A stretch of 64,000 bases of DNA from Alphaproteobacteria bacterium. Lineage in GTDB: Bacteria > Pseudomonadota > Alphaproteobacteria > JAJFFI01. Positions 693 through 33,960 of the stretch are shown piece after piece. The notes beneath the pieces are model-generated. The model saw only the letters and a program-made list of their open reading frames with translations. It searched no databases and was not told where the DNA came from. Position 1 is the first letter of the stretch; every line of letters begins with the position of its first letter. The stretch is taken from positions 1-64,000 of the forward strand of contig JASJBI010000024.1 in the NCBI GenBank assembly GCA_030066595.1, written 5' to 3'. Made by a program: the position numbers and the translations under genes.

Positions 693-1388
693 TCAGGGTC
701 CCGGCTCGTCCTGGCAGAACTGCTGCAGCGCGCCCACGTCCGCCACCGTCACCAGGCCGCCCTGGACCTCGACGCCGATGTCGCGCAGCCGCTGCAGGGC
801 GCGAGAGAAGGTCTCGGGCCGCATACCCAGCCGGGCTGCCACCAGCGACTTGTCGTAGGGCAGCTCGATGACCTGCGAGTCCGGCGCCGCCGGTCGCAAG
901 CGCAACAGGAAGCCCGCCACGCGTTGCGCCGCTGAGCGGGACTGGACCTGCTCCAGCTGGGCGACCAAGCGCCGCATGTGGCGCGACATGGAGCCGAGCA
1001 TGCGCAGCGCCAGCACGGGATCCGATCGGATTGCGTTGATGAACGGCCGGGCCGGCACCGTTACCAGGTCCGCTGCGGCGACTACCTCGGCGTTCACCGG
1101 ATAGCGGGCCGAATCGAAGATCGCGGCCTCGGCAAAGGACTCACCGCGGGTGAAGATCCCCAGAACCGTCTCGTCGCCGGCCGCGGTCTCGCGCCAGAGC
1201 TTGACCCAGCCGTTCAGCACGATGAAGAAACGCTCGGCGGGATCGCCCTGGAGAAACAGCACCGCACCCGGCGAATAGGGCCGGACGCGTGCGTTGGCCA
1301 AGAGGGGAAAGAGCGTCTCCCGCTCCAGCCCCGAGAACAACGGCACGGCTGAGACCAAGTCCCAATCCGCGGCGGCCAGCTTCGGCAT
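693..1388 (-). CDS. Crp/Fnr family transcriptional regulator, DNR-like (no N-terminal Fe-S cysteines)
   Basis: Starts MPKLAAADWDLVSAVPLFSGLERETL; cNMP-binding-like domain plus HTH with PETFSR recognition helix (E-xx-SR, FNR type); no N-terminal Cys cluster. Confidence 0.75.
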   Translation of the reverse strand: MPKLAAADWDLVSAVPLFSGLERETLFPLLANARVRPYSPGAVLFLQGDPAERFFIVLNGWVKLWRETAAGDETVLGIFTRGESFAEAAIFDSARYPVNAEVVAAADLVTVPARPFINAIRSDPVLALRMLGSMSRHMRRLVAQLEQVQSRSAAQRVAGFLLRLRPAAPDSQVIELPYDKSLVAARLGMRPETFSRALQRLRDIGVEVQGGLVTVADVGALQQFCQDEPGP

Positions 1389-1445
1389 CGCGCCCCCTCG
1401 CGCCTCTCGGCGGGCGGCCGGCACGGTCGCTGCCGGTCCCGCAAA

Positions 1446-1459
1446 TTGACCCCAATCAA
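1446..1459. promoter_or_regulatory. FNR/DNR-type box TTGAC-CCCA-ATCAA
   Basis: Matches TTGAY-N4-ATCAA; lies between the regulator (-) and a small TM protein (+). Confidence 0.7.
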
Positions 1460-1542
1460 GGTCTACCGCAAGCGTCCAGGGGCATACAATGGTCTGTTGC
1501 GCCGTGCAAAGGCGCTCAGAGGGGCCGGGGAAGGACCAGATC

Positions 1543-1722
1543 ATGGAAGCGGTCTACTTCACGATCGTTGCCGTCGCACTCTATTTTCTGTCCGATCGGC
1601 TGTTGCGCTTGGTCGAGGGATGGCTCGGCCGCGAGCTTGAGCACCGCACCTTGGTGTTCTTCGGCATTCTCCTGACGCTGGCGCTGGCGAGCTTTGCCCT
1701 GATCCGCCGGCTTTTCGGCTGA
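1543..1722 (+). CDS. small membrane protein (~59 aa)
   Basis: MEAVYFTIVAVALYFLSDRLLRLVEGWLGRELEHRTLVFFGILLTLALASFALIRRLFG; two hydrophobic segments; downstream of an FNR-type box. Confidence 0.55.
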   Translation: MEAVYFTIVAVALYFLSDRLLRLVEGWLGRELEHRTLVFFGILLTLALASFALIRRLFG

Positions 1723-1740: not shown

Positions 1741-1754
1741 TTGACGCTGATCAA
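1741..1754. promoter_or_regulatory. FNR/DNR-type box TTGAC-GCTG-ATCAA
   Basis: Motif about 110 bp upstream of the first oxidase operon gene. Confidence 0.7.
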
Positions 1755-1858
1755 GGCGCCGCCAAGAACCGCCTCCTATCTTGACGACCACTCTCGCGAG
1801 CTTCGCGAATGCCGTGGCTGGGGATGGGCCACGCGGAGGGGAAAACAAGGAGAGTGTC

Positions 1859-2032
1859 ATGGCGGAAGAGGCTCAAGGCGCGCCGGCGGGCGGTCGTCCC
1901 GTTCGTGTGCCGGTGATGCAGCGGCTGCTCGATAATCCGTTTCTGTTGCTGTTTCTCGGGGTTGTGGTCCCGACGGTCTTCTATCTGATCTGGGGGATCG
2001 TCGAGGTCGCAAACATCCCCATCGCGCAATAG
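1859..2032 (+). CDS. small single-TM protein of the ba3-type oxidase operon
   Basis: MAEEAQGAPAGGRPVRVPVMQRLLDNPFLLLFLGVVVPTVFYLIWGIVEVANIPIAQ, directly before coxII with an AG-rich RBS. Confidence 0.6.
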   Translation: MAEEAQGAPAGGRPVRVPVMQRLLDNPFLLLFLGVVVPTVFYLIWGIVEVANIPIAQ

Positions 2033-2042
2033 GGAGAGGGGC

Positions 2043-2585
2043 ATGGCCGTACAATCTCCGGAAAACAAACTGTGGTGGAACGAGCCCATCGGTCGGGCGG
2101 AGATGGCGTGGATCACCATCGCCTTCCTCTGGGGCCTGATCATGTTCGGCGCGATGATCTATTGGCACATCGAGGGCGAGCAGAACCTGTCCAACGAGGC
2201 CTATCGGATCAAGCCCGAGGTGTTCGCCGCAAAGGCCGAGGACATGGTCGCCAAATACACCGTGCGCGACGAGGGCGACACCGGCATCCCGGTGGTCCAC
2301 CCACCGCCCGGCAGCGACGTCTATCTGATCTCCCGACTGTGGGAATGGTGGCCGATCCTCGAGCTCGAGAAGGACCAGAGCTATCGGCTGCATCTGTCCT
2401 CCATGGACTGGCAGCACGGCTTCTCGCTGCAGCCAACCAACATCAACATCCAGGTCCATCCCAACTATGACCTGGTCCTGACCATGACGCCCAACGAGAC
2501 CGGCGAGTTCGGCATCGTCTGCAACGAATTCTGCGGCGTCGGCCACCACACCATGCTGGGCAAGATCTACGTGGTGGACAAATAG
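2043..2585 (+). CDS. cytochrome c oxidase subunit II, ba3-type
   Basis: CuA motif VCNEFCGVGHHTM, cupredoxin domain, one N-terminal TM. Confidence 0.85.
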   Translation: MAVQSPENKLWWNEPIGRAEMAWITIAFLWGLIMFGAMIYWHIEGEQNLSNEAYRIKPEVFAAKAEDMVAKYTVRDEGDTGIPVVHPPPGSDVYLISRLWEWWPILELEKDQSYRLHLSSMDWQHGFSLQPTNINIQVHPNYDLVLTMTPNETGEFGIVCNEFCGVGHHTMLGKIYVVDK

Positions 2586-2597
2586 GGGGAAGGTGCA

Positions 2598-4325
2598 ATG
2601 GCAGTCGAAACCGCTGAGGGTGTTGGCGCACTCGTAGAAGAGAAGTACCGCACCTGTCCCGAGACCGGCCTGCGCGTCTACGCCCAGGCGGAAACCCTGA
2701 TCAAGGCCAACGCCGTCGTCGCCATCGTCTTTCTGGCCGTCGGCGGCTTTTTCGGTCTGTTGGTGGCGCTCACACGCTGGCCGGCGGTGCATATCCTGCC
2801 GGCCGAATGGTTCTATCTCGTCCTCACCGCGCATGGCGCGGCCGTGCTCCTGTTCTGGATCATCTTCTTCGAGATCGCGATCCTCTACTTTGCGTCCGCC
2901 GTGCTGCTCAACTGTCGGCTGGCGACGCCCAGATTTGCCTGGCTCGCCTTCGCGCTGATGGTGCTCGGGGCGCTGGTTGCGACCGTCGCCGTGCTGCAGG
3001 GCGAATCCAGCGTGATGTTTACGTCCTATGTGCCGATGAAGGCGGCGCCGCATTTCTATCTCGGGCTGATCCTGTTCGCGGTCGGCGCCTTGATTGGCTG
3101 CTTCGTCTTCTTCGGGACCTTGGTGATCGCCAAGGAGGAGGCGACCTACGAGGGCTCGATCCCGCTGGTCACATTCGGTGCGCTCACGGCGGCGATCATC
3201 GCCATCTTCACCATCGCCTCGGGTGCGATCATCCTGATCCCCACCTTCCTGTGGTCGATCGGCTACATCAGCGAGATCGATTCCCTGACCTACAAGCTGG
3301 TCTGGTGGGGCATGGGCCACAGCTCGCAGCAGATCAACGTCTCGGCCCATGTGGCGGTCTGGTACCTGATCGCGGCGCTGGTGCTGGGCGCCAAGCCGCT
3401 CTCGGAGAAGGTGAGCCGAACGGCCTTCTTGCTCTACATCCTGTTCCTGCAGCTCGCCTGTGCCCATCATATGTTGGCCGAGCCGGGCATCAGCGCGGAA
3501 TGGAAGGTGTTCAACACCAGCTACGCCATGTATCTCGCGGTCCTCGGCAGCATGATCCACGGCATGAGCATCCCCGGCGCCATCGAATCGGCGCAGCGCC
3601 GTCACGGCTTCAACCGGGGCATGTTCGAATGGCTGCGAAAGGCGCCCTGGGGCAACCCGGCGTTCGCCGGCATGTTCCTCTCGCTCATCATGTTCGGCTT
3701 CCTGGGCGGCATCTCCGGCGTGGTGTTGGGCACCGAGCAGATCAACCTGCTGATGCACAACACCCTCTACGTGCCGGGACATTTCCACGCCACTGTGGTC
3801 GCCGGGACGACGCTTGCGTTTATGGCGGTGACCTATCTGGTGGTGCCGCTGATCTTCCGCAAAGAAATCATCTGGAAGGGTTTGGCCAAGTGGCAGCCCT
3901 ATCTGTTCGGCATCGGCGTCGCGGGCACCTCGCTGTTCATGATGGGCGCGGGGACGCTGGGCGTCTCGCGGCGGCACTGGGACATGGGCTTCACGGATGC
4001 CCCGGTGAGCTTCGATTATCCGGGAACGGCCTACCTCATGATGGGCCTGAACGGCGTGTTCGCGGTGTTGGCCACGATCGGCGGTCTGCTCTATGTGCTG
4101 ATCGTGGTCGGCTCGGTGTTCTTCGGTAAACCGCGCACGGCCGAAGCGATCGCGGCCAGCCCGACCATCCCGGCCGGTGCCGCGAAGGTCGCCGCCTCCT
4201 ATGGCAGCGAGGAGCATCCCAAGCTGCCCGGCACCCTTGTCCTGGTGACGATCTTCTTCGTCTCCTTCGTGCTGTACTACTTCATCAACTGGAAGTTCCT
4301 GTCCGAAGTATGGCCGTTGAGCTGA
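2598..4325 (+). CDS. cytochrome c oxidase subunit I, ba3-type (B-family haem-copper oxidase)
   Basis: 575 aa polytopic protein; ligand regions NVSAHVAVWY, CAHHMLAEPG and VPGHFHATVVAG resemble ba3 subunit I. Confidence 0.87.
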   Translation: MAVETAEGVGALVEEKYRTCPETGLRVYAQAETLIKANAVVAIVFLAVGGFFGLLVALTRWPAVHILPAEWFYLVLTAHGAAVLLFWIIFFEIAILYFASAVLLNCRLATPRFAWLAFALMVLGALVATVAVLQGESSVMFTSYVPMKAAPHFYLGLILFAVGALIGCFVFFGTLVIAKEEATYEGSIPLVTFGALTAAIIAIFTIASGAIILIPTFLWSIGYISEIDSLTYKLVWWGMGHSSQQINVSAHVAVWYLIAALVLGAKPLSEKVSRTAFLLYILFLQLACAHHMLAEPGISAEWKVFNTSYAMYLAVLGSMIHGMSIPGAIESAQRRHGFNRGMFEWLRKAPWGNPAFAGMFLSLIMFGFLGGISGVVLGTEQINLLMHNTLYVPGHFHATVVAGTTLAFMAVTYLVVPLIFRKEIIWKGLAKWQPYLFGIGVAGTSLFMMGAGTLGVSRRHWDMGFTDAPVSFDYPGTAYLMMGLNGVFAVLATIGGLLYVLIVVGSVFFGKPRTAEAIAASPTIPAGAAKVAASYGSEEHPKLPGTLVLVTIFFVSFVLYYFINWKFLSEVWPLS

Positions 4326-4390
4326 GGATGCGGGCGGGCGGCAGCGCTGCCGCCCGCCGCCGCTGGGAGGAATCGGGGGTCGGAGGAAGC

Positions 4391-5257
4391 ATGGGCGCGA
4401 CGTTCGGACAGATCTATGCGGTCTTCAAACTGCGCATCGGCGTCGCCATCACGCTCTGCGCGCTGGCCGGCCTCGCCGTTGCGCCGGGGCAGGGGCTGCC
4501 GGCGTGGAAGATCGCCGTTTTGGCGCTGGCGGTCCTGGTTTCGTCGGCCAGCGCCGGCGCCTTCAACCAATATGCCGAGCGGGCGTTGGACGCCCGCATG
4601 GCGCGGACCCGCAACCGCCCCTTCGCCACCGGCGAGTGGCGACCCGGCTGGTACTGGCCGGTCGGCATCGTGGCGCTGTTGGCGGTCGCGGTGCTGGGCG
4701 CCGGCGTGGCGCTCAACCCGGCCGCCGCGCTCTACGTCTTCCTCGGCGCTTTCGTCTACGGCGTGGTCTACACCGTCTGGCTCAAGCGACGGACGGCGTG
4801 GAACATCGTCGTTGGCGGGCTGGCTGGCAGTTTTGCGGTGCTGGCCGGTGGCGCAGCGGTGGGCCACGAACTCTCCCCGACCGTCGCCATCCTCGCAGCG
4901 GTGCTGTTCCTGTGGACGCCGCCGCATTTCTGGAGCCTGGCCACCGCGCTGCACGAAGACTACGCCGCGGCGCGGGTCCCGATGCTGCCGGTGGTGATCG
5001 GCGACGCGGCGGCGGCCAAGGTCATCCTCGGGCATACCGTGGCGCTGGTCGCGCTCTCGCTGCTGCCCGTGTTCTACGGCCTCGGCTGGGTCTATCTCGT
5101 GGGCGCCGTGGTCGGGGGAGCCTGGTTCGTCTGGAAGAGCCTCGCCCTCGTGCGGTCGCCCGGACCCGTGGCCGCGATCGCCAACTTCAAGGCGTCGCTG
5201 GCGCAGTTGGGGCTGCTGCTGTTGGGGGCCATCCTCGATGGCTGGCTGTTGGGGTGA
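4391..5257 (+). CDS. ctaB: protoheme IX farnesyltransferase (UbiA family)
   Basis: NQYAERALDARMARTRNRP and WTPPHFWSLA motifs. Confidence 0.88.
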   Translation: MGATFGQIYAVFKLRIGVAITLCALAGLAVAPGQGLPAWKIAVLALAVLVSSASAGAFNQYAERALDARMARTRNRPFATGEWRPGWYWPVGIVALLAVAVLGAGVALNPAAALYVFLGAFVYGVVYTVWLKRRTAWNIVVGGLAGSFAVLAGGAAVGHELSPTVAILAAVLFLWTPPHFWSLATALHEDYAAARVPMLPVVIGDAAAAKVILGHTVALVALSLLPVFYGLGWVYLVGAVVGGAWFVWKSLALVRSPGPVAAIANFKASLAQLGLLLLGAILDGWLLG

Positions 5258-5266
5258 GGGGCAGGC

Positions 5267-6094
5267 ATGACCGGCCTCGGACGAACGGGCGGGACGCTGC
5301 TCCTTGCCGCGCTGATCACGGCCGCCGCGCCGGCCGGGGCGACCAGCGCGCCGGAACCTTCGCCTTATGACGAACGGGCCGCGCTGGCCTACAGCCAGGC
5401 CGCGCTGGGGCGCCAGGTCGGCGACCACGCCTTTCTGAACCGCGCGCGCGACACCGTTCGCCTTTCCGACTACCGTGGCAAGCCTTTGGTGGTGAACCTG
5501 GTCTACACCGCCTGCTATCATACCTGCCCCTTGGTGGTGGAGGCGCTTGGCGAGGCCGTTGCTGTGGCGCAGGATGCCCTCGGAGAAGACAGCTTTGCGG
5601 TGGTCACCATCGGCTTCGACGCCGCCGCGGACACGCCCGAGCGCATGCGCGCCTATGCCCACGGCCGCGGCACCGACCTGCCGAACTGGGCTTTTCTCAG
5701 CGGCGACGACGAGACCATCGACCGGCTGATCAAGGAGGTGGGCTTCATTTTCTATCCGTCGCCCAAGGGCTTCGACCACTTGGCGCAGACCACGGTGCTT
5801 GACCGGGAGGGCCGGGTCTATCGCCACGTCTATGGCTCGGAGTTCCGGCCGCCGGCCCTGGTCGAGCCGCTCAAGGACCTGGTGTTCGGCCGTGCCAGCG
5901 AGCCGACGAGCCTGCAGGGCATCATCGACCGGGTCCGCCTGTTCTGTACGCTCTACGACCCGGCCAGCCAGCGCTACCGCTTCGACTATTCCATTTTCCT
6001 GGGCCTGATCATCGGTTTCGTGACGCTGGCGGGCATCGCCAGCGTGCTGATCCGCGCGGCCTGGCGCGCGCACAATCGGGGCCGACCCGCATGA
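5267..6094 (+). CDS. SCO1/SenC family copper chaperone with C-terminal TM
   Basis: NLVYTACYHTCPLVVEALGEAV (CxxxC), thioredoxin-like fold, C-terminal TM; stop overlaps the next start (ATGA). Confidence 0.85.
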   Translation: MTGLGRTGGTLLLAALITAAAPAGATSAPEPSPYDERAALAYSQAALGRQVGDHAFLNRARDTVRLSDYRGKPLVVNLVYTACYHTCPLVVEALGEAVAVAQDALGEDSFAVVTIGFDAAADTPERMRAYAHGRGTDLPNWAFLSGDDETIDRLIKEVGFIFYPSPKGFDHLAQTTVLDREGRVYRHVYGSEFRPPALVEPLKDLVFGRASEPTSLQGIIDRVRLFCTLYDPASQRYRFDYSIFLGLIIGFVTLAGIASVLIRAAWRAHNRGRPA

Positions 6095-7686
6095 GGCCGG
6101 TCCAGGCGCCTCTGCGCGCCGCGTTCGATGGCATCGAGGCCGGACTCAACATCGTCTTTCCACCCAGTTGGAACCCGCTGCGCAATCTCGGCGCACTGGC
6201 CTTCTTCATGTACTGGATCGTCGCCGTCAGCGGCATCTACGTGTACATCTTCTTCGACACCGGCCTGACTGAAGCCTACGACTCGGTCGAGTACATGACC
6301 CACGACCAGTGGTATCTGGCCGGAGTCATGCGCAGCCTGCACCGCTATGCCTCGGATGGCATGGTGTTGTTCATGCTGGTGCACATGCTGCGCGAGTTCG
6401 CGCTGGACCGCTACCGGGGCCCGCGCTGGTTCACCTGGGTGACCGGCGTGCCGATCTTGCTGTTGGTGATCATGGCGGGGATCTCCGGCTACTGGCTGGT
6501 CTGGGACCGCCTTGCCCAATACGTCGCGATCGCGACCACCGAATGGTTCGACTGGCTGCCCATCTTTGGCCAATCCATCGCCCGAAATTTCCTCACCACG
6601 GACAGCCTGGACGACCGCTTCTTCACGCTGATGATCTTCATCCACATCGCCGTGCCGCTGATTCTGCTGTTCATCCTCTGGGTGCATCTGCAGCGGGTCA
6701 GTCGGCCGGAGATCAACCCGCCCCGCGGGCTGGCGATCGGCAGCTTTCTCATGCTGTTGGGCCTATCCCTAGTCTATCCGGCGGTCAGCCAGGGCCCAGC
6801 GGACCTCTCCACCGTGGTTTCCGTGGTCGGTCTCGACTGGTTCTACCTCGGGCTCTATCCGCTGGTGGACTATTGGTCGAGCGGCACCGTCTGGGGGTTC
6901 GTCACGGTGCTGGGCCTGATCTTGATCGTGCTGCCCTGGATGCCGCCGATGCGCCGCGCCCCGGCCGCACAGGTCGACCCGGCGCACTGCAACGGCTGCA
7001 CCTGGTGCCTGCTCGACTGTCCCTACAACGCCATCGAAATGGGCCCGCGTACCGACAACGCGGCCTTCGATCAACAGGCGGTGGTCGATCCGAGCCTGTG
7101 CGTACGCTGCGGAATCTGCGCCGCGTCCTGTCCCAGCTCGACCCCTTTTCGCAAGGGTGGCGAGGTGCTGACCGGGATCGACCTGCCCGGCAGCCCCCTC
7201 AACGATCTGCGCCAACGCATGGTCGATGTAGCGGGCTCCTTGTCGGGTGACGCCCGGATTCTGGTGATCGGCTGTGGCCGCGGCGTACCGGTCGACAGTG
7301 TCGCCAGCCCCAGCGTGGCCGCGCTGACCCTGCCCTGCGTGGGCAACCTGCCGCCGTCTTTCGTCGACTTTGCGGTGAGCCGGGATCTTGCGGACGGTGT
7401 CATGCTGGCAGGCTGTCGCGACGGCGACTGCCATTTCCGTTTTGGCATTCGCTGGACGGAGGAGCGGGTGGATCGGGAGCGCGACCCGCGCTTGCGCGTG
7501 CGTGTTCCCCGTGGGCGCCTGGCCTATTGCTGGTCCGGGCCCGGCGGAAGCCGCCGCCTGCGGCGGGAGATCACAGCCTTCGCCGAGCGGCTGAAGGCGA
7601 TGCCCAAGAGGCCGCGTTGGGAGCCGGCCGCCGGGCCGCCGCCGGCGCCGACGGTCGAACTCGAACCGACGGGTAGCGATGGCTAG
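6091..7686 (+). CDS. fusion: N-terminal cytochrome b, 2x[4Fe-4S] ferredoxin, MvhD/FlpD-like hydrogenase iron-sulfur domain
   Basis: 531 aa: multi-TM cyt b with SLHRYASDGMVLFMLVHMLREF; CNGCTWCLLDCP and CVRCGICAASCP clusters; C-terminal CVGNLPPSFVDFAVSRDLADGVMLAGCRDGDCHFRFG. Confidence 0.85.
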   Translation: MRPVQAPLRAAFDGIEAGLNIVFPPSWNPLRNLGALAFFMYWIVAVSGIYVYIFFDTGLTEAYDSVEYMTHDQWYLAGVMRSLHRYASDGMVLFMLVHMLREFALDRYRGPRWFTWVTGVPILLLVIMAGISGYWLVWDRLAQYVAIATTEWFDWLPIFGQSIARNFLTTDSLDDRFFTLMIFIHIAVPLILLFILWVHLQRVSRPEINPPRGLAIGSFLMLLGLSLVYPAVSQGPADLSTVVSVVGLDWFYLGLYPLVDYWSSGTVWGFVTVLGLILIVLPWMPPMRRAPAAQVDPAHCNGCTWCLLDCPYNAIEMGPRTDNAAFDQQAVVDPSLCVRCGICAASCPSSTPFRKGGEVLTGIDLPGSPLNDLRQRMVDVAGSLSGDARILVIGCGRGVPVDSVASPSVAALTLPCVGNLPPSFVDFAVSRDLADGVMLAGCRDGDCHFRFGIRWTEERVDRERDPRLRVRVPRGRLAYCWSGPGGSRRLRREITAFAERLKAMPKRPRWEPAAGPPPAPTVELEPTGSDG

Positions 7687-8182
7687 CGCGGTGAAATATG
7701 GCGGCCAGATCCTGGTCTACGCGGTGATCGCCGCGGTGCTGGGCTACTTCTCGGCGTCGCCCGCCTTCCGTCACTTCCCGGAGGATATGGCGCTGATCAA
7801 GCTCGCCTTCGCGCACGGCGCCAAGCCCAAGGGCAAATGCCGCACACTCTCGGCCAAGGAGATCGCGGCGTTGCCGCCGAACATGCGCAGGCCGAAGATC
7901 TGCCCGCGGGAGCGGCTGCCGGTGTTTGTCGAGCTTGAGCTGAACGGCGAGTTGATCTATCGCAAGGCGCTGCCGCCGACCGGGCTGCATGGTGACGGTC
8001 CGGCCCGGGTTTACGAGGGATTTCCGGTGCCGGCCGGTCGGCATGCGCTGGTGGTGCGTCTGCGCGACAGCGACCGAAGCGAGGGCTTCGACTACGTTCG
8101 GGCGACCGACGTCACCTTGGAGCCCGCACGAAAGTTTGTGGTTGATTTTCGGTCCGAGCTCGGCGGTTTCATATTCAAGTGA
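7679..8182 (+). CDS. conserved hypothetical, N-terminally anchored
   Basis: 167 aa with N-terminal TM; translationally coupled to flanking genes. Confidence 0.6.
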   Translation: MASAVKYGGQILVYAVIAAVLGYFSASPAFRHFPEDMALIKLAFAHGAKPKGKCRTLSAKEIAALPPNMRRPKICPRERLPVFVELELNGELIYRKALPPTGLHGDGPARVYEGFPVPAGRHALVVRLRDSDRSEGFDYVRATDVTLEPARKFVVDFRSELGGFIFK

Positions 8183-8211
8183 GGAAACCGCCCCGGACCC
8201 CGGAGGACTGG

Positions 8212-8607
8212 ATGGCATTGATCGCGTGGAGGGACGAGTTCAAGATCGGCATTCCGTCGGTCGACCACGAGCATCAGGAACTGATCGAGCTGATCAACCA
8301 GCTGTTCGATAAGCTCGCGGCGAAAGAGTCCAAGACCAGCGTCAGCGAGTTCTTCGGCGAACTGCACGCCAAGATCGCGGCGCATTTCGCGCTCGAGGAA
8401 CGGCTCATGCGCGAGCAGGCCTATTTCGAGTACGAGGCCCACAAGGCCGACCACGAGCAGCTCTTGGACGACATCCGCGAGATCATGGACAACTACTGGC
8501 TCGGCGCCTACCTCGACTATTCCGACACTCTGGCCGAACACCTGAACGACTGGTTCACGGTGCACTTCAAGACCAAGGACGCGCGCCTGCACGCCTATCT
8601 GGATTGA
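8212..8607 (+). CDS. bacteriohemerythrin
   Basis: SVDHEHQELIELIN, HFALEERLMREQAYFEYEAHKADHEQLL, HFKTKDARL; an upstream GTG at 8179 is an alternative start. Confidence 0.88.
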   Translation: MALIAWRDEFKIGIPSVDHEHQELIELINQLFDKLAAKESKTSVSEFFGELHAKIAAHFALEERLMREQAYFEYEAHKADHEQLLDDIREIMDNYWLGAYLDYSDTLAEHLNDWFTVHFKTKDARLHAYLD

Positions 8608-8658
8608 CGCACGGTCCGACGCGAGATCCCTTTACGATCGGTCGCAGTACGACGAAGC

Positions 8659-10176
8659 CTATAGAGGTACCGTCGTCCGGAAAGCTTGGGTCAGCGGCGC
8701 CTCCTCGGCCTGCGGCAGCGCGCTGCCAAGCAAAGCGGCGATGGTCGGCGCCAGCGCGGTGATTCGGACGGGCTTGCTCAGCCGGCCGGCTGCTATGCCA
8801 GGACCGTGGGCGATAAGCACCCCCCGTTCGTTGTGGTCGCCGGTGCGCGAGCCCGGATAGGCTCGGTGCAGCGCGCCGATTTTGGGCGATGCGACGGCAG
8901 AGATCGGCCGTGGCCGGTTCCAAATCGCGAACAGATCCGGCAGATCGCCCATATGTGGCCCTTCGCAGATCTCGGCCACCTTTACGACTTCCCGGACGAT
9001 CGGCGCGCCACCGTCGAGATTTCGGATCGCCAAGAGATCTTTCGCGAGTTCGGCACAGCAGCTGTCGTATTCGGCGCCGGGGCGGACCAAGCCGTGCGGC
9101 TCGCGTCCGATCAGGTTGATGCGGATCGCGCCGCTGTTCTCATCATGCGGAACGGCGAAGAATCTGCGGTGGCTGCGCTCCGAGATCGGAATGCGAATCC
9201 GCGCTCGGCGCGCCGCCGCACGGAGTCCCCGGCGCAGGCCCTCGGGAACGATACGGCGATAGCCGGCGGCAAGCGGGTGTAGTTTCTGTCGGGGCGCCGC
9301 GTGCGGGCCCGACTCGAGGCAAAGAAGGATCTCCTCAAGGAGATGGTTTCCGGTGTAGTCCGGCTCGAGCCCGAGACCCGCGAGCACGATCACCGTTGTC
9401 CCCGGTCCGACCGCGGCGAGCAGACGCGCGACCGCGGCGTCGAGCGCGCAATAAATCCTCTTTACCGGATCGCCATGCGCGGCAACCCATGCCGCGTCAT
9501 ACAGCGCATGCGCGGGATCATGCAGATGCCAAGCGCGATGGCCGATGTCGTGCGCCTCGGCGAAGTTGACCATGAACAGGTCCCATCTCCCCGGTGCGAG
9601 GTGATCGCAGACCATCTGCGTCTTCATCTCGATCCGGCGCAACAGCTCGTCGTGCAGACGGACGTAGTCCGCCGGGTCGGGGCCGTAGGCGTCGCAATCG
9701 CCGCCCAGCGGATCGGCGCCGTAGCGCTGGATGACCTGGGAGATCAGATCCGGCGGCCAACTGCGCGGCGGCGCGCCCGGTGAGTGGTCCGTCCAGGCCG
9801 CAATCTGGAACCCGTCGAAGTCCCGCCGCAGCGGCGCGCGGAACATGTCGATGACGGCCACGCGCTTGCCGCCACGGCCGAGGACGGACCAAATGGGTTC
9901 GCATTTCAAGCCCGTATCGTCCGAAAAGTGGCTGACCTCGTAGCTGCCGGTCACAATCTGATACATGAAGTAGCGGCCGTGGCGTCCTGGGTTCACGCCC
10001 GTGAAGAAGCACGGCCAATAGAGGCCGTTGCCGAAGCCCGCGAAGTTGGTCGCTGTGCCCGTGAGCCCGGCGTCTTGGAGCGACGCCAGCGTCGGCAGGT
10101 CGCCTGACTTCGTCCACCGCTCCAGCAGCGTCGGCTCGAGCGAGTCGAGGCCGACGAAGAGGATCTTGGTCTTCAT
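8659..10176 (-). CDS. type I phosphodiesterase/nucleotide pyrophosphatase-like protein (alkaline phosphatase superfamily)
   Basis: Start MKTKILFVGLDSLEPTLLERW; GRHGRYF, HDIGHRAWH and DHNERGVLIAHGPGI motifs. Confidence 0.7.
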   Translation of the reverse strand: MKTKILFVGLDSLEPTLLERWTKSGDLPTLASLQDAGLTGTATNFAGFGNGLYWPCFFTGVNPGRHGRYFMYQIVTGSYEVSHFSDDTGLKCEPIWSVLGRGGKRVAVIDMFRAPLRRDFDGFQIAAWTDHSPGAPPRSWPPDLISQVIQRYGADPLGGDCDAYGPDPADYVRLHDELLRRIEMKTQMVCDHLAPGRWDLFMVNFAEAHDIGHRAWHLHDPAHALYDAAWVAAHGDPVKRIYCALDAAVARLLAAVGPGTTVIVLAGLGLEPDYTGNHLLEEILLCLESGPHAAPRQKLHPLAAGYRRIVPEGLRRGLRAAARRARIRIPISERSHRRFFAVPHDENSGAIRINLIGREPHGLVRPGAEYDSCCAELAKDLLAIRNLDGGAPIVREVVKVAEICEGPHMGDLPDLFAIWNRPRPISAVASPKIGALHRAYPGSRTGDHNERGVLIAHGPGIAAGRLSKPVRITALAPTIAALLGSALPQAEEAPLTQAFRTTVPL

Positions 10177-10969: not shown

Positions 10970-11524
10970 TTATTCCTGACTGACCGGCTCGTCCAGGTCC
11001 TCGTTCCAGCCCGGTTCGGGCGCCGGGTATTTGGCCATCCACTCCTCGATCAAGCGGACATGCTCCTCTTCTTCTTCGACGAATTCCTCGGCGAGCGCCC
11101 GGACCTCCGGGTTCTCGGCTGCCTGCAGCAGGGCCTGGTAGAAATCCCGGGCCGCGGTCTCGCCCGCCAGCGAGAGCAGCAGCGCCTGATAAGGCGTCAT
11201 CAGATAGTGGGCCTGGCTGCTGTCCACCGCCTCGGGGCTTTCGAAGCTCGGCCACTGATAGTCCCAGGGCGAGAGCGTCGGCAGGTCGAGCCCCTTGGCC
11301 CGCTCGGCGATCTGGTCTGCGTGCAGCTGCTCGATCTTGGCGAGCTTTGCGAACATCACGGCCAGCTCCGGGTTGTTGTGCACCTCCATCTGGGCCGCCA
11401 GCTCGGTGTAGCGGGCGACCGCGTCGAGCTCGAGGGCATAGGCGTGCGCCAGCAGCTCCTCCAGGCTCTCGATGACCGGCGCGTCCGGGCCGCCTGCTGT
11501 CTTCGTCTGCGCTTTCTCGCTCAC
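10970..11524 (-). CDS. ferritin-like/rubrerythrin-type diiron protein
   Basis: Paired E...ExxH helices (LELDAVARYTELA; LAKIEQLHADQI; LAGETAARDFYQALL; EEEEEHVRLIEEW); GTG start overlaps korB stop. Confidence 0.75.
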   Translation of the reverse strand: MSEKAQTKTAGGPDAPVIESLEELLAHAYALELDAVARYTELAAQMEVHNNPELAVMFAKLAKIEQLHADQIAERAKGLDLPTLSPWDYQWPSFESPEAVDSSQAHYLMTPYQALLLSLAGETAARDFYQALLQAAENPEVRALAEEFVEEEEEHVRLIEEWMAKYPAPEPGWNEDLDEPVSQE

Positions 11525-12360
11525 AGCTCGAACTCCTTCTCCAGGTCCTGCGGTTCCACGACCGCCTCGACCGTCTCCCGCCAATAGGGCCGGCGATTGC
11601 CGCGATAGAGAATGCCCGTATTGAACCCGTCGTCGGTCATGATCCGGCGCGCCGCGCGGGCCGGGTCGTCGGTCGGGTCGACCGGCGCGCCGTGCACCAT
11701 GTTCTTCCAGTTCCGTTCGTCCGGGCGGAAGGTCACACAGGGGCTCAAGATTTCGACAAAGGAGAAGCCCGGATGGCGGATCGCCTCGAAGATCAGCCGC
11801 GCGGTGCCGTTCACGTCGCCGGAAAAGCCGCGCGCCACGAAATTGGCGCCCGAGGCGAGCGCGATCACCAGGGGGTGGAACGGCCGCAAGCCGGTGCCAC
11901 CCGGCGACAGCGCGCTGTCGAAGTCGGGCTCGGTGGTCGGCGACGGCTGGCCCTTGGTCATGCCATAGATGCGGTTGTCCATGACCACATAGGTGATGTC
12001 GACATTGCGTCGGCAGGCGTGCAGGAAATGGTTGCCGCCGATCGAGAAGCCGTCGCCGTCGCCGCCGGTGGCGATCACCGTGAGCTCGGGCCGGGCCACC
12101 TTGAGTCCGGTGGCGAGCGCCAGCCCGCGGCCGTGCACGCCGTGAAAGCCGTAGCAGTTGGTGTAGGCGGGGATGCGCGACGAGCAGCCGATCCCGGAGA
12201 TCACGGCGATCTCCTCCGGCTTGAGCGCCAGCTCGGCGAGTGCCTTACCGAACGACAGCAGCACGTGGTAGTCGCCGCAGCCCGGGCACCAGACCGGCTT
12301 GATGTCGGACTTGAAGTCGCTGGCCTTGGGCGCAGCGGCGGTGGCGGTTGCTGTGGTCAT
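11521..12360 (-). CDS. korB: 2-oxoacid (2-oxoglutarate):ferredoxin oxidoreductase, beta subunit
   Basis: KPVWCPGCGDYHVL, GIGCSSRIPAYTNCYGFHGVHGRGLALATGLK, TPP-binding GDGDGFSIGGNH. Confidence 0.88.
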   Translation of the reverse strand: MTTATATAAAPKASDFKSDIKPVWCPGCGDYHVLLSFGKALAELALKPEEIAVISGIGCSSRIPAYTNCYGFHGVHGRGLALATGLKVARPELTVIATGGDGDGFSIGGNHFLHACRRNVDITYVVMDNRIYGMTKGQPSPTTEPDFDSALSPGGTGLRPFHPLVIALASGANFVARGFSGDVNGTARLIFEAIRHPGFSFVEILSPCVTFRPDERNWKNMVHGAPVDPTDDPARAARRIMTDDGFNTGILYRGNRRPYWRETVEAVVEPQDLEKEFEL

Positions 12361-14102
12361 GGTCCCCTCCACTCGAGAAGCGCCGCGTGCACGTCGCCGG
12401 GCCGGATCATCAACGGTCCCGGCCGGTGGAGCGTGCGGGTCTCGGCAGGCAGGTCGTAGTGCGCGCGCAGGTAATGATGGAACTGCCCGGAGTGAGTCTG
12501 CTCGACGACGAGGGCCCGTTCGACCCCCTCCATCGCCTTGGCGAAACGCTCCGGTTGCGCCGGTGCCAGGAGCCGCGGCGCGATCAGCCGGGTCCTGAAC
12601 CCGTCCGCGGCGGCGCGCGCCAGCGCGTCGCGCACCGGGCCCGTGGTCGAGCCCCAGGTGATGATGGCGAGCGGCCCGTCGCCCTCGATCTCGGCCCAGT
12701 GGTCGCCATAGTCGAACTGGGCGATCTTGTCCCGCCGCTTGTCCATCTGCGTCGCATGGTCCTCGGCCCGCGTCGACGGCGTGCCGCGCGGATTGTGCTC
12801 CAAGCCGTCGGCGGTGTATTGGCCGCCGGCCGTGCCCGGAATCGCCATCGGCGAGACGCCCGACGCGGTCACCGCATAGCGCTGATAGGCCTCGGCCGGG
12901 TCCGCCGCAACCTCGCGCCGGGCGATGAAGGCCACGTCCGCCGGACGGTCGATGGCGGCCCGCGCCTGGCCCAGGAACTGGTCCGACAACACGATGGCCG
13001 GCGCCTGCATGGCCTCGGCCAGATGCACCGCCCACTGGGTCGTGAACAGGCAGTCGCTCACCGAATTCGGCGCCACCACGATATGGGGCGCGTCGCCGTG
13101 CAGGCCGTAGACCGCGATGTTCAGATCCGACTGCTCGGACTTGGTCGGGATGCCGGTGGACGGGCCGCCGCGCATCACGTCGACCACAACGATCGGCACC
13201 TCAGACGCAGTGGCCAGGCCGATCGACTCGGTCATCAGCGCCAGCCCCGGCCCGGAGGTCGCGGTGATGGACGGCGTGCCGCCATAGGAGGCGCCGATCA
13301 CCATGTTGATCGAGGCCAGTTCGTCCTCGGCCTGGACCAAACTGCCGCCCAGCTTGGCCAGCGCCGGGGCGAGCCATTCCAGGACCTCGGTCGCAGGCGT
13401 TATCGGATAGGCGGCGGCGAAGCGCACCCCGCCCCGCACCGCGCCGAGCGCCGCGGCCTCGTTGCCGGAGATGATCCAGCGGCCGTCGCCGGCCCCGCTG
13501 GGAGGGCTCAGAGTCACGCTGGCGCCGAGGGTTGCGGCGGCCGCCATGCCGGCCCGCACGGTCTCGCTGCTCGCGGACACCGCCTCCGGACCCTTCTTGC
13601 CGAGCGTCTTTTCCAAGGTGGCGAACAGGGCGCTCTCGGGCAGGCCGATCAAGCCGGCGGCGATGCCCAAGGCCAGCATGTTCGGCCGTCCGCCGGGGAT
13701 CCCGTCGGCGGTCTCCTTGATCGCCAGCTCGGCAATCCGCGCGCCGCTGTCGGCGATCGTAGGCGGGATCTCGCCCGCCTCGGGATCCGCGATCACCAGG
13801 CTGTCCTCGCTCAGAGGGATTTCGGCGGCGAAACGGTCGATGTTGAGCCAATCGAGCGCCACCAGCACGTCATATCGCTCGGCTCCACAGGCCACCGGAG
13901 TGGTCGACAGACAGACCAGCGCCGCCGCTTCGCCACCGCGGATCTGCGGCCCGACCGAACGGGTCAACAACCCGTACCAGCCGGCCCGCGCCGCCGCTTC
14001 CATGAGAATTCCGCCCGCGGTAATGGCGCCGCCGCCGCCGCTGCCGGTGATGGCGATCGAGACGCTGTCGCGTGCCTGTTCCTGCCGTGCCATGGGTTCC
14101 AA
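12357..14102 (-). CDS. korA: 2-oxoacid (2-oxoglutarate):ferredoxin oxidoreductase, fused gamma-alpha subunit
   Basis: N-terminal SIAITGSGGGGAITAGGIL; AAYPITPATEVLEWLA; VVVDVMRGGPSTGIPTKSEQSDL; ATGA overlap with korB. Confidence 0.87.
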   Translation of the reverse strand: MEPMARQEQARDSVSIAITGSGGGGAITAGGILMEAAARAGWYGLLTRSVGPQIRGGEAAALVCLSTTPVACGAERYDVLVALDWLNIDRFAAEIPLSEDSLVIADPEAGEIPPTIADSGARIAELAIKETADGIPGGRPNMLALGIAAGLIGLPESALFATLEKTLGKKGPEAVSASSETVRAGMAAAATLGASVTLSPPSGAGDGRWIISGNEAAALGAVRGGVRFAAAYPITPATEVLEWLAPALAKLGGSLVQAEDELASINMVIGASYGGTPSITATSGPGLALMTESIGLATASEVPIVVVDVMRGGPSTGIPTKSEQSDLNIAVYGLHGDAPHIVVAPNSVSDCLFTTQWAVHLAEAMQAPAIVLSDQFLGQARAAIDRPADVAFIARREVAADPAEAYQRYAVTASGVSPMAIPGTAGGQYTADGLEHNPRGTPSTRAEDHATQMDKRRDKIAQFDYGDHWAEIEGDGPLAIITWGSTTGPVRDALARAAADGFRTRLIAPRLLAPAQPERFAKAMEGVERALVVEQTHSGQFHHYLRAHYDLPAETRTLHRPGPLMIRPGDVHAALLEWRGP

Positions 14103-14260: not shown

Positions 14261-14274
14261 TTGACGCGCATCAA
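14261..14274. promoter_or_regulatory. FNR/DNR-type box TTGAC-GCGC-ATCAA
   Basis: Centre about 66 bp upstream of the had start codon. Confidence 0.68.
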
Positions 14275-14333
14275 CGACAACACGCCGTCGGACGCAGAAG
14301 CTGACTTGGGTCGATGTGGAGGAGGAGCGGAGG

Positions 14334-15407
14334 ATGGCACAAACCGCCGAACGCTGGCTGATGACCAAACCCGGGGCGCCTTTGGTGATGGAGGGGTTCG
14401 ATCCGTTCCCGCCCGGCCCCGGCGAGGTGGTGGTCGAGATCGCCGGCTGCGGCGTCTGCCACACCGACCTTGGCTACTATTATGACGGCGTGCGCACGAA
14501 CCACGAGCTGCCGCTGGCGCTCGGCCATGAGGTCAGCGGCCGAGTGGTCGCGGCCGGCGAGGGAGCGGAGGACTGGGGCGATCGCACCGTGATCGTGCCG
14601 GCGGTCATTCCCTGCGGCAGCTGCGAGCTCTGCCAGCGGGGCAAGCACACCATCTGCCCCAATCAGAAGATGCCGGGCAACGACATCCAGGGCGGCTTCG
14701 CCAGCCATATCGTGGTGCCGGCCTTCGGACTCTGTCCGGTGGACGAAGGGCGGCTCGCAGCCGCGGGCCTTACGCTACCCGACGTTTCGGTCATCGCGGA
14801 CGCGGTCACCACGCCCTATCAGGCGGTGGTGCAGGCCGGGGTTCAGCCGGGTTCGCTCGCCGTGGTCGTGGGCGTCGGCGGGGTCGGCGGGTATACGGTC
14901 CAGATCGCGCGCGCCTTCGGCGCGACGGTGGTCGCCATCGACGTGAGCCAGGACAAGCTCGACGCGATCGCCGATCACGGCGCGGGGCTGACCCTCAATG
15001 CCCGCGATTTCGACGGTCGCGAACTCAAGAACCGCACCCGGGCCTTTGCCAAGAGCCAGGGCCTGCCGCTCACCGAATGGACCATATTCGAATGCTCCGG
15101 CACCGGGGCCGGTCAGCTCACCGCCTATGGGCTCCTCAATCACGGCGCCACGCTGGCGGTCGTGGGTTTCACCATGGACAAGGTCGAAGTCCGGCTTTCC
15201 AACCTGATGGCGTTTCACGCCCGCGCGCTGGGCAATTGGGGCTGTCCGCCCGAGCTCTATCCCAAGGCGCTGGACCTGGTGCTCGACGGCCAGGTTCAGG
15301 TGGCGCCTTTCGTCGAACAGCATCCGCTCGCCGAGATCAACCGGGTGTTCGAGGACGTGCACGCGGGCAAGCTGGCCCGCCGCGCCGTCCTGGTCCCCGG
15401 CGGCTGA
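14334..15407 (+). CDS. had: 6-hydroxycyclohex-1-ene-1-carbonyl-CoA dehydrogenase
   Basis: Zn-ADH motifs ([44 protein letters not shown]); operon with oah, dch and bcr. Confidence 0.88.
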
Positions 15408-15432
15408 CCGGCCAGCAACGGAGGCAAGAGAA

Positions 15433-16569
15433 ATGTCCGCAAGCATAGCGCAAGTGATGAACGAGACGGCGCCCCGGGCGCTCAAGAACCACACGCTGGT
15501 GCCCGAGGTCGTGGCCGAGGGTGTGTTGTTCGAGAAGCGGCCCGCGCGCACGCCCGACGGCGTGACCGCCGAAGGCCTCTACAACGCCTGGATCACGCTC
15601 GACAACCCAGGCCAGTTCAATTCCTACACCACCGACATGGTCAAGGGGGTGATCCTCGCCTTCCGCGAGGCCTCGGCGTCGCGCGACGTCAATGCGGTGG
15701 TGTTCACCGGGGCCGGGCACCAGGCCTTCTGCTCCGGCGGAAACACCAAGGAATACGCCGAGTACTACGCCGGAAACCCGCAGGAATACCGCCAGTACAT
15801 GCGGCTCTTCAACGACATGGTCTCGGCCATCCTGGGCTGCGACAAGCCGGTGATCTGCCGCGTCAACGGCATGCGCATCGGCGGCGGCCAGGAGATCGGC
15901 ATGGCCTGCGACTTTTCCATCGCGCAGGATTTGGCCCGGTTCGGCCAAGCCGGCCCCAAGCACGGCTCGGCGGCGATCGGCGGGGCGACGGATTTCCTGC
16001 CGGTCATGATCGGCTGCGAACAGGCCATGGTCTCTGGCGTGCTGTGTGAGCCCTTCTCGGCGCACCAAGCCTATCGCCTGGGCATCATCATGGATCTGGT
16101 GCCGGCGCTCAAGCTGGACGGCGCGTTCGTTCCCAACCCGACCGTGATCACCGACCGCATGTTCGACGACTTCGGCCGCATTATCTATGGCGCGCCCAAG
16201 ACCGGAGACGAGCTGGCCGAAGGCAAGGCGCTGCTCAAGTCGGGCCAAGTGGACCTCAGCCTGCTCGACCAGAAGGTCGAGGAGATGTGCGGCAAGCTGT
16301 TGCTCACCTTCCCGGACTGCGTGACCAAGTCCCTCGAGCAGCTGCGCAAGCCCAAGCTGGAAGCCTGGAACCGCAACAAGGAAGACGCCCGCGCCTGGCT
16401 TGCGCTCAACATGATGACCGAGGCGCGCATGGGCTTCCGGGCCTTCAACGAGGGCACCAAGGAGACCGGCCGCGAGATCGACTTCGTGGCGCTCCGGCGG
16501 GCGCTCGCCCAAGGCACGCCCTGGACCGACGCGCTGACCGAAAGCCTGATGCCGGGCGCGGAGTCGTAA
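15433..16569 (+). CDS. oah: 6-oxocyclohex-1-ene-1-carbonyl-CoA hydrolase
   Basis: Crotonase-fold protein (378 aa) with LDNPGQFNSYTTDMVKGVI and FCSGGNTKEYAEYYAGNPQEYRQYMRLFNDMV. Confidence 0.9.
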   Translation: MSASIAQVMNETAPRALKNHTLVPEVVAEGVLFEKRPARTPDGVTAEGLYNAWITLDNPGQFNSYTTDMVKGVILAFREASASRDVNAVVFTGAGHQAFCSGGNTKEYAEYYAGNPQEYRQYMRLFNDMVSAILGCDKPVICRVNGMRIGGGQEIGMACDFSIAQDLARFGQAGPKHGSAAIGGATDFLPVMIGCEQAMVSGVLCEPFSAHQAYRLGIIMDLVPALKLDGAFVPNPTVITDRMFDDFGRIIYGAPKTGDELAEGKALLKSGQVDLSLLDQKVEEMCGKLLLTFPDCVTKSLEQLRKPKLEAWNRNKEDARAWLALNMMTEARMGFRAFNEGTKETGREIDFVALRRALAQGTPWTDALTESLMPGAES

Positions 16570-33946: not shown

Positions 33947-33960
33947 TTGATCGATATCAA
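33947..33960. promoter_or_regulatory. FNR/DNR-type box TTGAT-CGAT-ATCAA (perfect dyad)
   Basis: Perfect TTGAT-N4-ATCAA about 205 bp upstream of a hemerythrin-domain gene. Confidence 0.75.

Follow-up and report, generated by a model that had tools for sequence, protein, structure and literature searches.

A cytochrome b–ferredoxin–FlpD fusion protein encoded with an eNOR-type nitric-oxide reductase, a candidate membrane electron-transfer partner

The operon and its haem-copper enzyme

The analysed window is a stretch of 64,000 nucleotides of an alphaproteobacterial contig (JASJBI010000024.1), and positions refer to it unless another locus is named. On the forward strand it carries an operon encoding a small single-TM subunit of a haem-copper enzyme (1781..2032, true start probably the ATG at 1859, with a P..Y..WG..E motif conserved in 37 sequences), subunit II with a CuA domain and intact ligands CNEFCGVGHHTM (2043..2585), subunit I (2598..4325), the haem O synthase CtaB/CyoE (4310..5257; TIGR01473 over its cut-off), a SCO/SenC copper chaperone (5267..6094; PF02630, E 6e-13), the fusion protein studied here (6091..7686), the protein p167 (7679..8182), and a bacteriohemerythrin (8179..8607; NF033749 over its cut-off) that is present in 30/63 loci. 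Across Proteobacteria the same arrangement is found repeatedly, from the small subunit through II, I, CtaB, SCO, the fusion, and p167 to hemerythrin. The neighbourhood survey proposed in the first-pass annotation found the fusion repeatedly linked to haem-copper subunits. Outside the operon the commonest neighbour is a NirS/cytochrome d1 family gene (26/63 loci). The same 63 loci revealed no recurrent flavoprotein donor gene near the fusion, and no Rieske or cytochrome c1/f partner was detected in the operon or among their recurrent neighbours.

A CRP/FNR-type regulator (693..1544, reverse strand; PF00027, PF13545) is divergently transcribed. FNR/DNR-like boxes, each with one mismatch to TTGAT-N4-ATCAA, were detected directly upstream of the operon (TTGACgctgATCAA, 1741..1754) and probably upstream of the true start of the regulator (TTGACcccaATCAA, 1446..1459). 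Because such boxes are over-represented across the whole window (22 versus 8.4 expected), those at the operon serve as supporting evidence only. Additional FNR-like boxes, one of them perfect, are located at 33947-33960 and 14261-14274. The operon is also adjoined by genes for a 2-oxoacid:ferredoxin oxidoreductase and for two enzymes of the benzoyl-CoA pathway, 6-hydroxycyclohex-1-ene-1-carbonyl-CoA dehydrogenase and the 6-oxo hydratase/hydrolase (11521-14102, reverse strand, and 14316-16569, forward strand).

Subunit I is homologous to the T. thermophilus ba3 oxidase (E about 1e-42) and contains H241, H290, H291, H395, and H397, while Gln245 replaces the cross-linked Tyr, aligning with T. thermophilus Y237. 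The helix-VI motif is GHSSQQ or GHASQQ in 37/37 relatives, whereas oxygen reductases have Tyr at this position, as in the contrasting GHPVVY motif of a Haloarcula oxidase. The QQ motif is shared by the relatives on Thermus and Thermomicrobium plasmids (45-47% identical), and one of the Thermus plasmid copies is close to nirS. Gln at the cross-linked-Tyr site has been described as the eNOR marker (PMC8756737); in Magnetospirilli the ba3-a1 type has no catalytic Tyr (PMC6431628), and it was re-named eNOR once NO reductase activity had been reported (PMC8879329). The operon has the helix-VI Gln, a CuA/cupredoxin subunit II adjoining subunit I, and SCO in common with this subtype, and differs from it by the additional fusion, p167, and p59. 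Judged by these residues, the enzyme is a predicted eNOR-type nitric-oxide reductase and not an oxygen reductase, since it does not have the catalytic Tyr of the B-family (ba3) oxygen reductases. The locus had earlier been called a ba3-oxidase operon: the synteny was correct, but the functional label is wrong, because Gln replaces the cross-linked Tyr in all 37 sequences, which is the published eNOR hallmark.

The fusion protein and its partners p167 and p59

The ORF at 6091..7686 (forward strand) encodes 531 aa with no internal stops, and its three predicted modules all exceeded the curated Pfam cut-offs: Cytochrome_B at residues 24-201 (E 3e-21), Fer4_7 at 299-349 (E 2e-9), and FlpD at 406-504 (E 2e-12), the last with a profile score of 47.5 bits against a cut-off of 22.3. 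In the PDB sequence search the N-terminus matched cytochrome b6 (E 1e-19), and the C-terminus alone matched the MvhD chains 9sw2_D and 5odc_D (E 5e-8 to 6e-7). Relatives were detected at 49 further loci, most with full-length similarity, and one copy lies on a complete plasmid of Defluviimonas (the carrier strain being Defluviimonas sp. SAOS-178_SWC), where its annotation says no more than "cytochrome b N-terminal domain-containing protein". These about 50 independent loci and the complete plasmid rule out that separate genes were joined by a frameshift or an assembly error.

The alignment of 44 homologues confirmed the paired His and the cluster motifs noticed originally. His 84/98/185/199, giving two bis-His haem sites, are invariant, as are the eight ferredoxin Cys (300/303/306/310/337/340/343/347) of the two [4Fe-4S] motifs, while the FlpD Cys 395/416/442/447 are kept in 43-44 of the 44 sequences. 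Canonical MvhD has a CxxC close to its N-terminus, and of this pair the fusion seems, from the alignment, to retain one Cys only, C395. The C-terminal domain is like the [2Fe-2S] subunit MvhD/FlpD/VhuD in its Pfam score and the GCxxGDC signature, but it has only four conserved Cys, a membrane cytochrome attached, and a host in which no HdrA was found. The link to HdrA that the MvhD/FlpD signature had implied is not borne out, as no HdrA match at E 1e-30 was found in the host genome. HdrA was also not found in several other genomes, so it is ruled out as a general partner of the fusion; HdrA-like matches in Magnetococcales resemble Qmo/Hdr-type proteins encoded elsewhere in the genome.

The AlphaFold2 model (41 sequences; pLDDT 84, pTM 0.82) predicts six long membrane helices followed by the soluble domains, with lower confidence for the cd and ef loops. 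Foldseek matched bc1 cytochrome b over about 285 residues, and the membrane part therefore exceeds b6, with helix E, the ef loop, and also helix F included. The bis-His di-haem four-helix core of cytochrome bc1/b6f is present, and helices A-F, the four haem His, their 14-residue spacing, and an ef loop, with LDWFY instead of PEWY, are shared with bc1 cytochrome b and with b6 plus subunit IV of b6f. The fusion differs from these proteins by an operon without Rieske or cytochrome c1/f and by the attached Fer4 and FlpD domains. D249-W250, within LDWFY at the PEWY position, is invariant, and this loop is the putative counterpart of the PEWY quinol loop. NCBIfam profiles are consistent with the helix E-F content: ExtP, the best of all, matched residues 33-206 and ExtQ residues 219-293. 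These matches are shared with the b-type cytochrome of selenite/tellurite reduction operons (NF040969/NF040970), but the scores are far under the equivalog cut-offs (108 of 290 and 31 of 150 bits), and the fusion is one chain with Fe-S and FlpD domains. Loop charge counts in 44 sequences, read by the positive-inside rule, place the Fe-S part in the cytoplasm. Domains, ligands, fold match, and loop charges together uphold the likely role as a membrane module for electron transfer.

Two small proteins accompany the fusion. The first, p167 (7679..8182, forward strand), was modelled by AlphaFold2 (pLDDT 93.6) as a TM anchor and a predicted periplasmic beta-sandwich, and H46, C54, and C75 are invariant in the alignment. 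A Rieske-like or known-fold protein is ruled out for p167, which has no Pfam match, no Rieske motif in the alignment, and no PDB fold match at E <= 1e-3. It was detected in 32/299 genomes, beside the fusion in 32/32, and is absent from the others. The second, p59 (1543..1722, forward strand), has 59 aa, is probably a two-TM protein without a Pfam match, and is shorter than the usual ORF length limit. Its conservation near the fusion, including loci where the fusion is unlinked from eNOR, was detected by tblastn in 66 loci, overlapping copies included.

Distribution and exchange of the cytoplasmic module

Among 299 genomes of the phylum, which are related so that the counts are phylogenetically not independent, the fusion was detected in 33, eNOR subunit I in 29, and both in 28. 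In the good assemblies, eNOR was present in 16/16 fusion carriers and the fusion in 16/17 eNOR carriers. Distances among the fusions correlate with those of eNOR subunit I (r = 0.87). Magnetococcales have the fusion and p167 adjoining nirS and unlinked from eNOR, which is still present in the genomes together with the fusion, and SCO remains with eNOR while the fusion does not. The nirS-family genes beside the fusion and p167 in this order are at 7279-8976 (reverse strand) of locus L084 and at 3923-5584 and 7314-9059 of locus L100.

The fusion is not required for eNOR generally, because the plasmid-borne eNOR of Thermus and Thermomicrobium is without a nearby fusion in the stretch examined. 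The host genome has three NirS/cytochrome d1 family genes, cbb3, and a cNOR NorB (motif HIWVEG). Due to this cNOR, eNOR is ruled out as the sole NOR of the host, and the fusion module is not tied to the only NO-reducing route of the cell.

In Betaproteobacteria we detected a paralogue in which the same cytochrome b is fused to a [2Fe-2S]-FAD-NAD(P) reductase, replacing Fer4-FlpD. It was found in two Nitrosomonadales loci and in Ideonella, with fragments in a Burkholderiaceae bin. Copies of this paralogue lie at L025 5916-7847, L028 6004-7929, and L042 3624-5534, the last on the reverse strand. Phylogenetically, both types of Nitrosomonadales copy cluster with the reductase version from Ideonella, and the tree supports this grouping strongly. 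As far as sequences tell, this argues that the cytoplasmic end of the cytochrome b fusion is an exchangeable electron intake. Since a NAD(P) reductase can take the place of the cytoplasmic module, a direction in which the b haems receive electrons from the cytoplasm is favoured.

Proposed function and alternatives

We consider it fairly probable that the fusion, p167, and p59 constitute a membrane electron-transfer complex serving NO (perhaps nitrite) respiration alongside eNOR. This reading is supported by the domains and ligands, the bc1 fold match, the loop charges, the invariant D249-W250, the eNOR-type subunit I, operon conservation, co-occurrence, the nirS links, the restriction of p167 to sites beside the fusion, the module swap, and the correlated distances (r = 0.87); against it stand the lack of a nearby donor gene, the negative searches for HdrA in the host and several other genomes, the Thermus/Thermomicrobium eNOR without the fusion, and the cNOR of the host. 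We infer complex formation, cluster occupancy, flow direction, donor, and acceptor as follows. The FlpD domain would be the docking site for a reduced carrier from the cytoplasm, either a flavoprotein or ferredoxin. Electrons would enter the [2Fe-2S] cluster of this domain, continue through both [4Fe-4S] clusters to the b haem on the inner side (His98/His199), and cross the membrane to the outer one (His84/His185), with a possible exit near the conserved LDWFY loop. From there they might reach the CuA centre of eNOR by way of quinone, bc1, and cytochrome c, or might be passed directly to a periplasmic acceptor with the assistance of p167.

A bolder version is rather unlikely: a dedicated complex of the three proteins would take electrons from a low-potential soluble carrier and deliver them straight across the membrane to an acceptor of NO or nitrite respiration in the periplasm, bypassing quinone and bc1, with FlpD or the NAD(P)H reductase as exchangeable intake. 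If true, this would add a new, modular class to the respiratory entry complexes. The SCO and CtaB neighbours are assembly factors and two invariant Cys of p167 are on the periplasmic side, which would agree with a reductive maturation factor exporting electrons to keep SCO, the p167 thiols, or CuA reduced during enzyme assembly. We regard such a role as unlikely, because the Magnetococcales SCO stays with eNOR while the fusion is apart, and thiol reduction usually needs no bis-haem b and three clusters.

Reverse flow is a quite unlikely alternative on the present evidence: the DWFY site on the periplasmic side would oxidise quinol, and the b haems would hand the electrons to Fe-S/FlpD to yield a cytoplasmic reductant of low potential, eNOR/CuA being the high-potential branch of a bifurcation or of reverse transport. 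FlpD is a component of bifurcating complexes, the Q-site-like loop is kept in the fusion, and the operon in the host is adjoined by the 2-oxoacid:ferredoxin oxidoreductase and anaerobic aromatic degradation genes, all in agreement with such a direction. The operon has no Rieske protein, however, p167 has no Rieske motif, transfer from the periplasmic side to ferredoxin potential is strongly uphill, and the diaphorase variant agrees better with NAD(P)H oxidation. The original proposal that the fusion feeds an oxygen-reducing ba3 oxidase is largely refuted and has become very improbable. The homology of subunit I to T. thermophilus ba3 and the presence of CuA and SCO speak for it, but they are outweighed by the change of the catalytic Tyr to Gln in every relative, as in eNOR, the reassignment of ba3-a1 to eNOR (PMC8879329, PMC6431628), and the nirS-family genes in the neighbourhood.

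The eNORs, which produce N2O and are candidates for electrogenic enzymes, frequently carry an oxidase annotation, and their electron supply is poorly known. The analysis names a specific candidate partner complex of eNOR, whose conservation across Proteobacteria goes together with denitrification genes, and contributes two candidate subunits that had no annotation; whether NO respiration possesses an electron entry of its own from the cytoplasm can in this way be tested directly by genetics. FlpD, a domain familiar from methanogens and further anaerobes, is now placed in denitrifiers without detectable HdrA. The literature on FlpD/MvhD together with NOR or denitrification yielded only an entry in Table A3 of PMC8756737, RME88945.1, listed with cytochrome b6, DMSOR-beta-type Fe-S, FlpD, and cytochrome c (C1) domains and no further description. 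Compared by this table entry, RME88945.1 alone has the cytochrome c (C1) domain, which would fit an electron exit on the periplasmic side. Each domain is known, and the combination appears to have been tabulated once, with no full description of the architecture found in an eNOR literature that was covered incompletely and may hold an earlier mention of the neighbour gene. The fusion probably represents a so far undescribed path by which electrons from inside the cell reach NO respiration.

Two additional arrangements were observed in the surveyed loci. The fusion is present as two tandem copies in small genomes of one family (L106, 7581-9164 and 9390-10997; also genomes G136, G227, and G278). 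A divergent COX1-like protein of 459-472 aa is encoded at L025 8360-9778 and L106 11490-12869, with similar ORFs in about 17 more loci, often near the fusion and p167 and once adjoining CtaA; it keeps the helix-II and H-x-H haem His and is without the HH CuB ligands.
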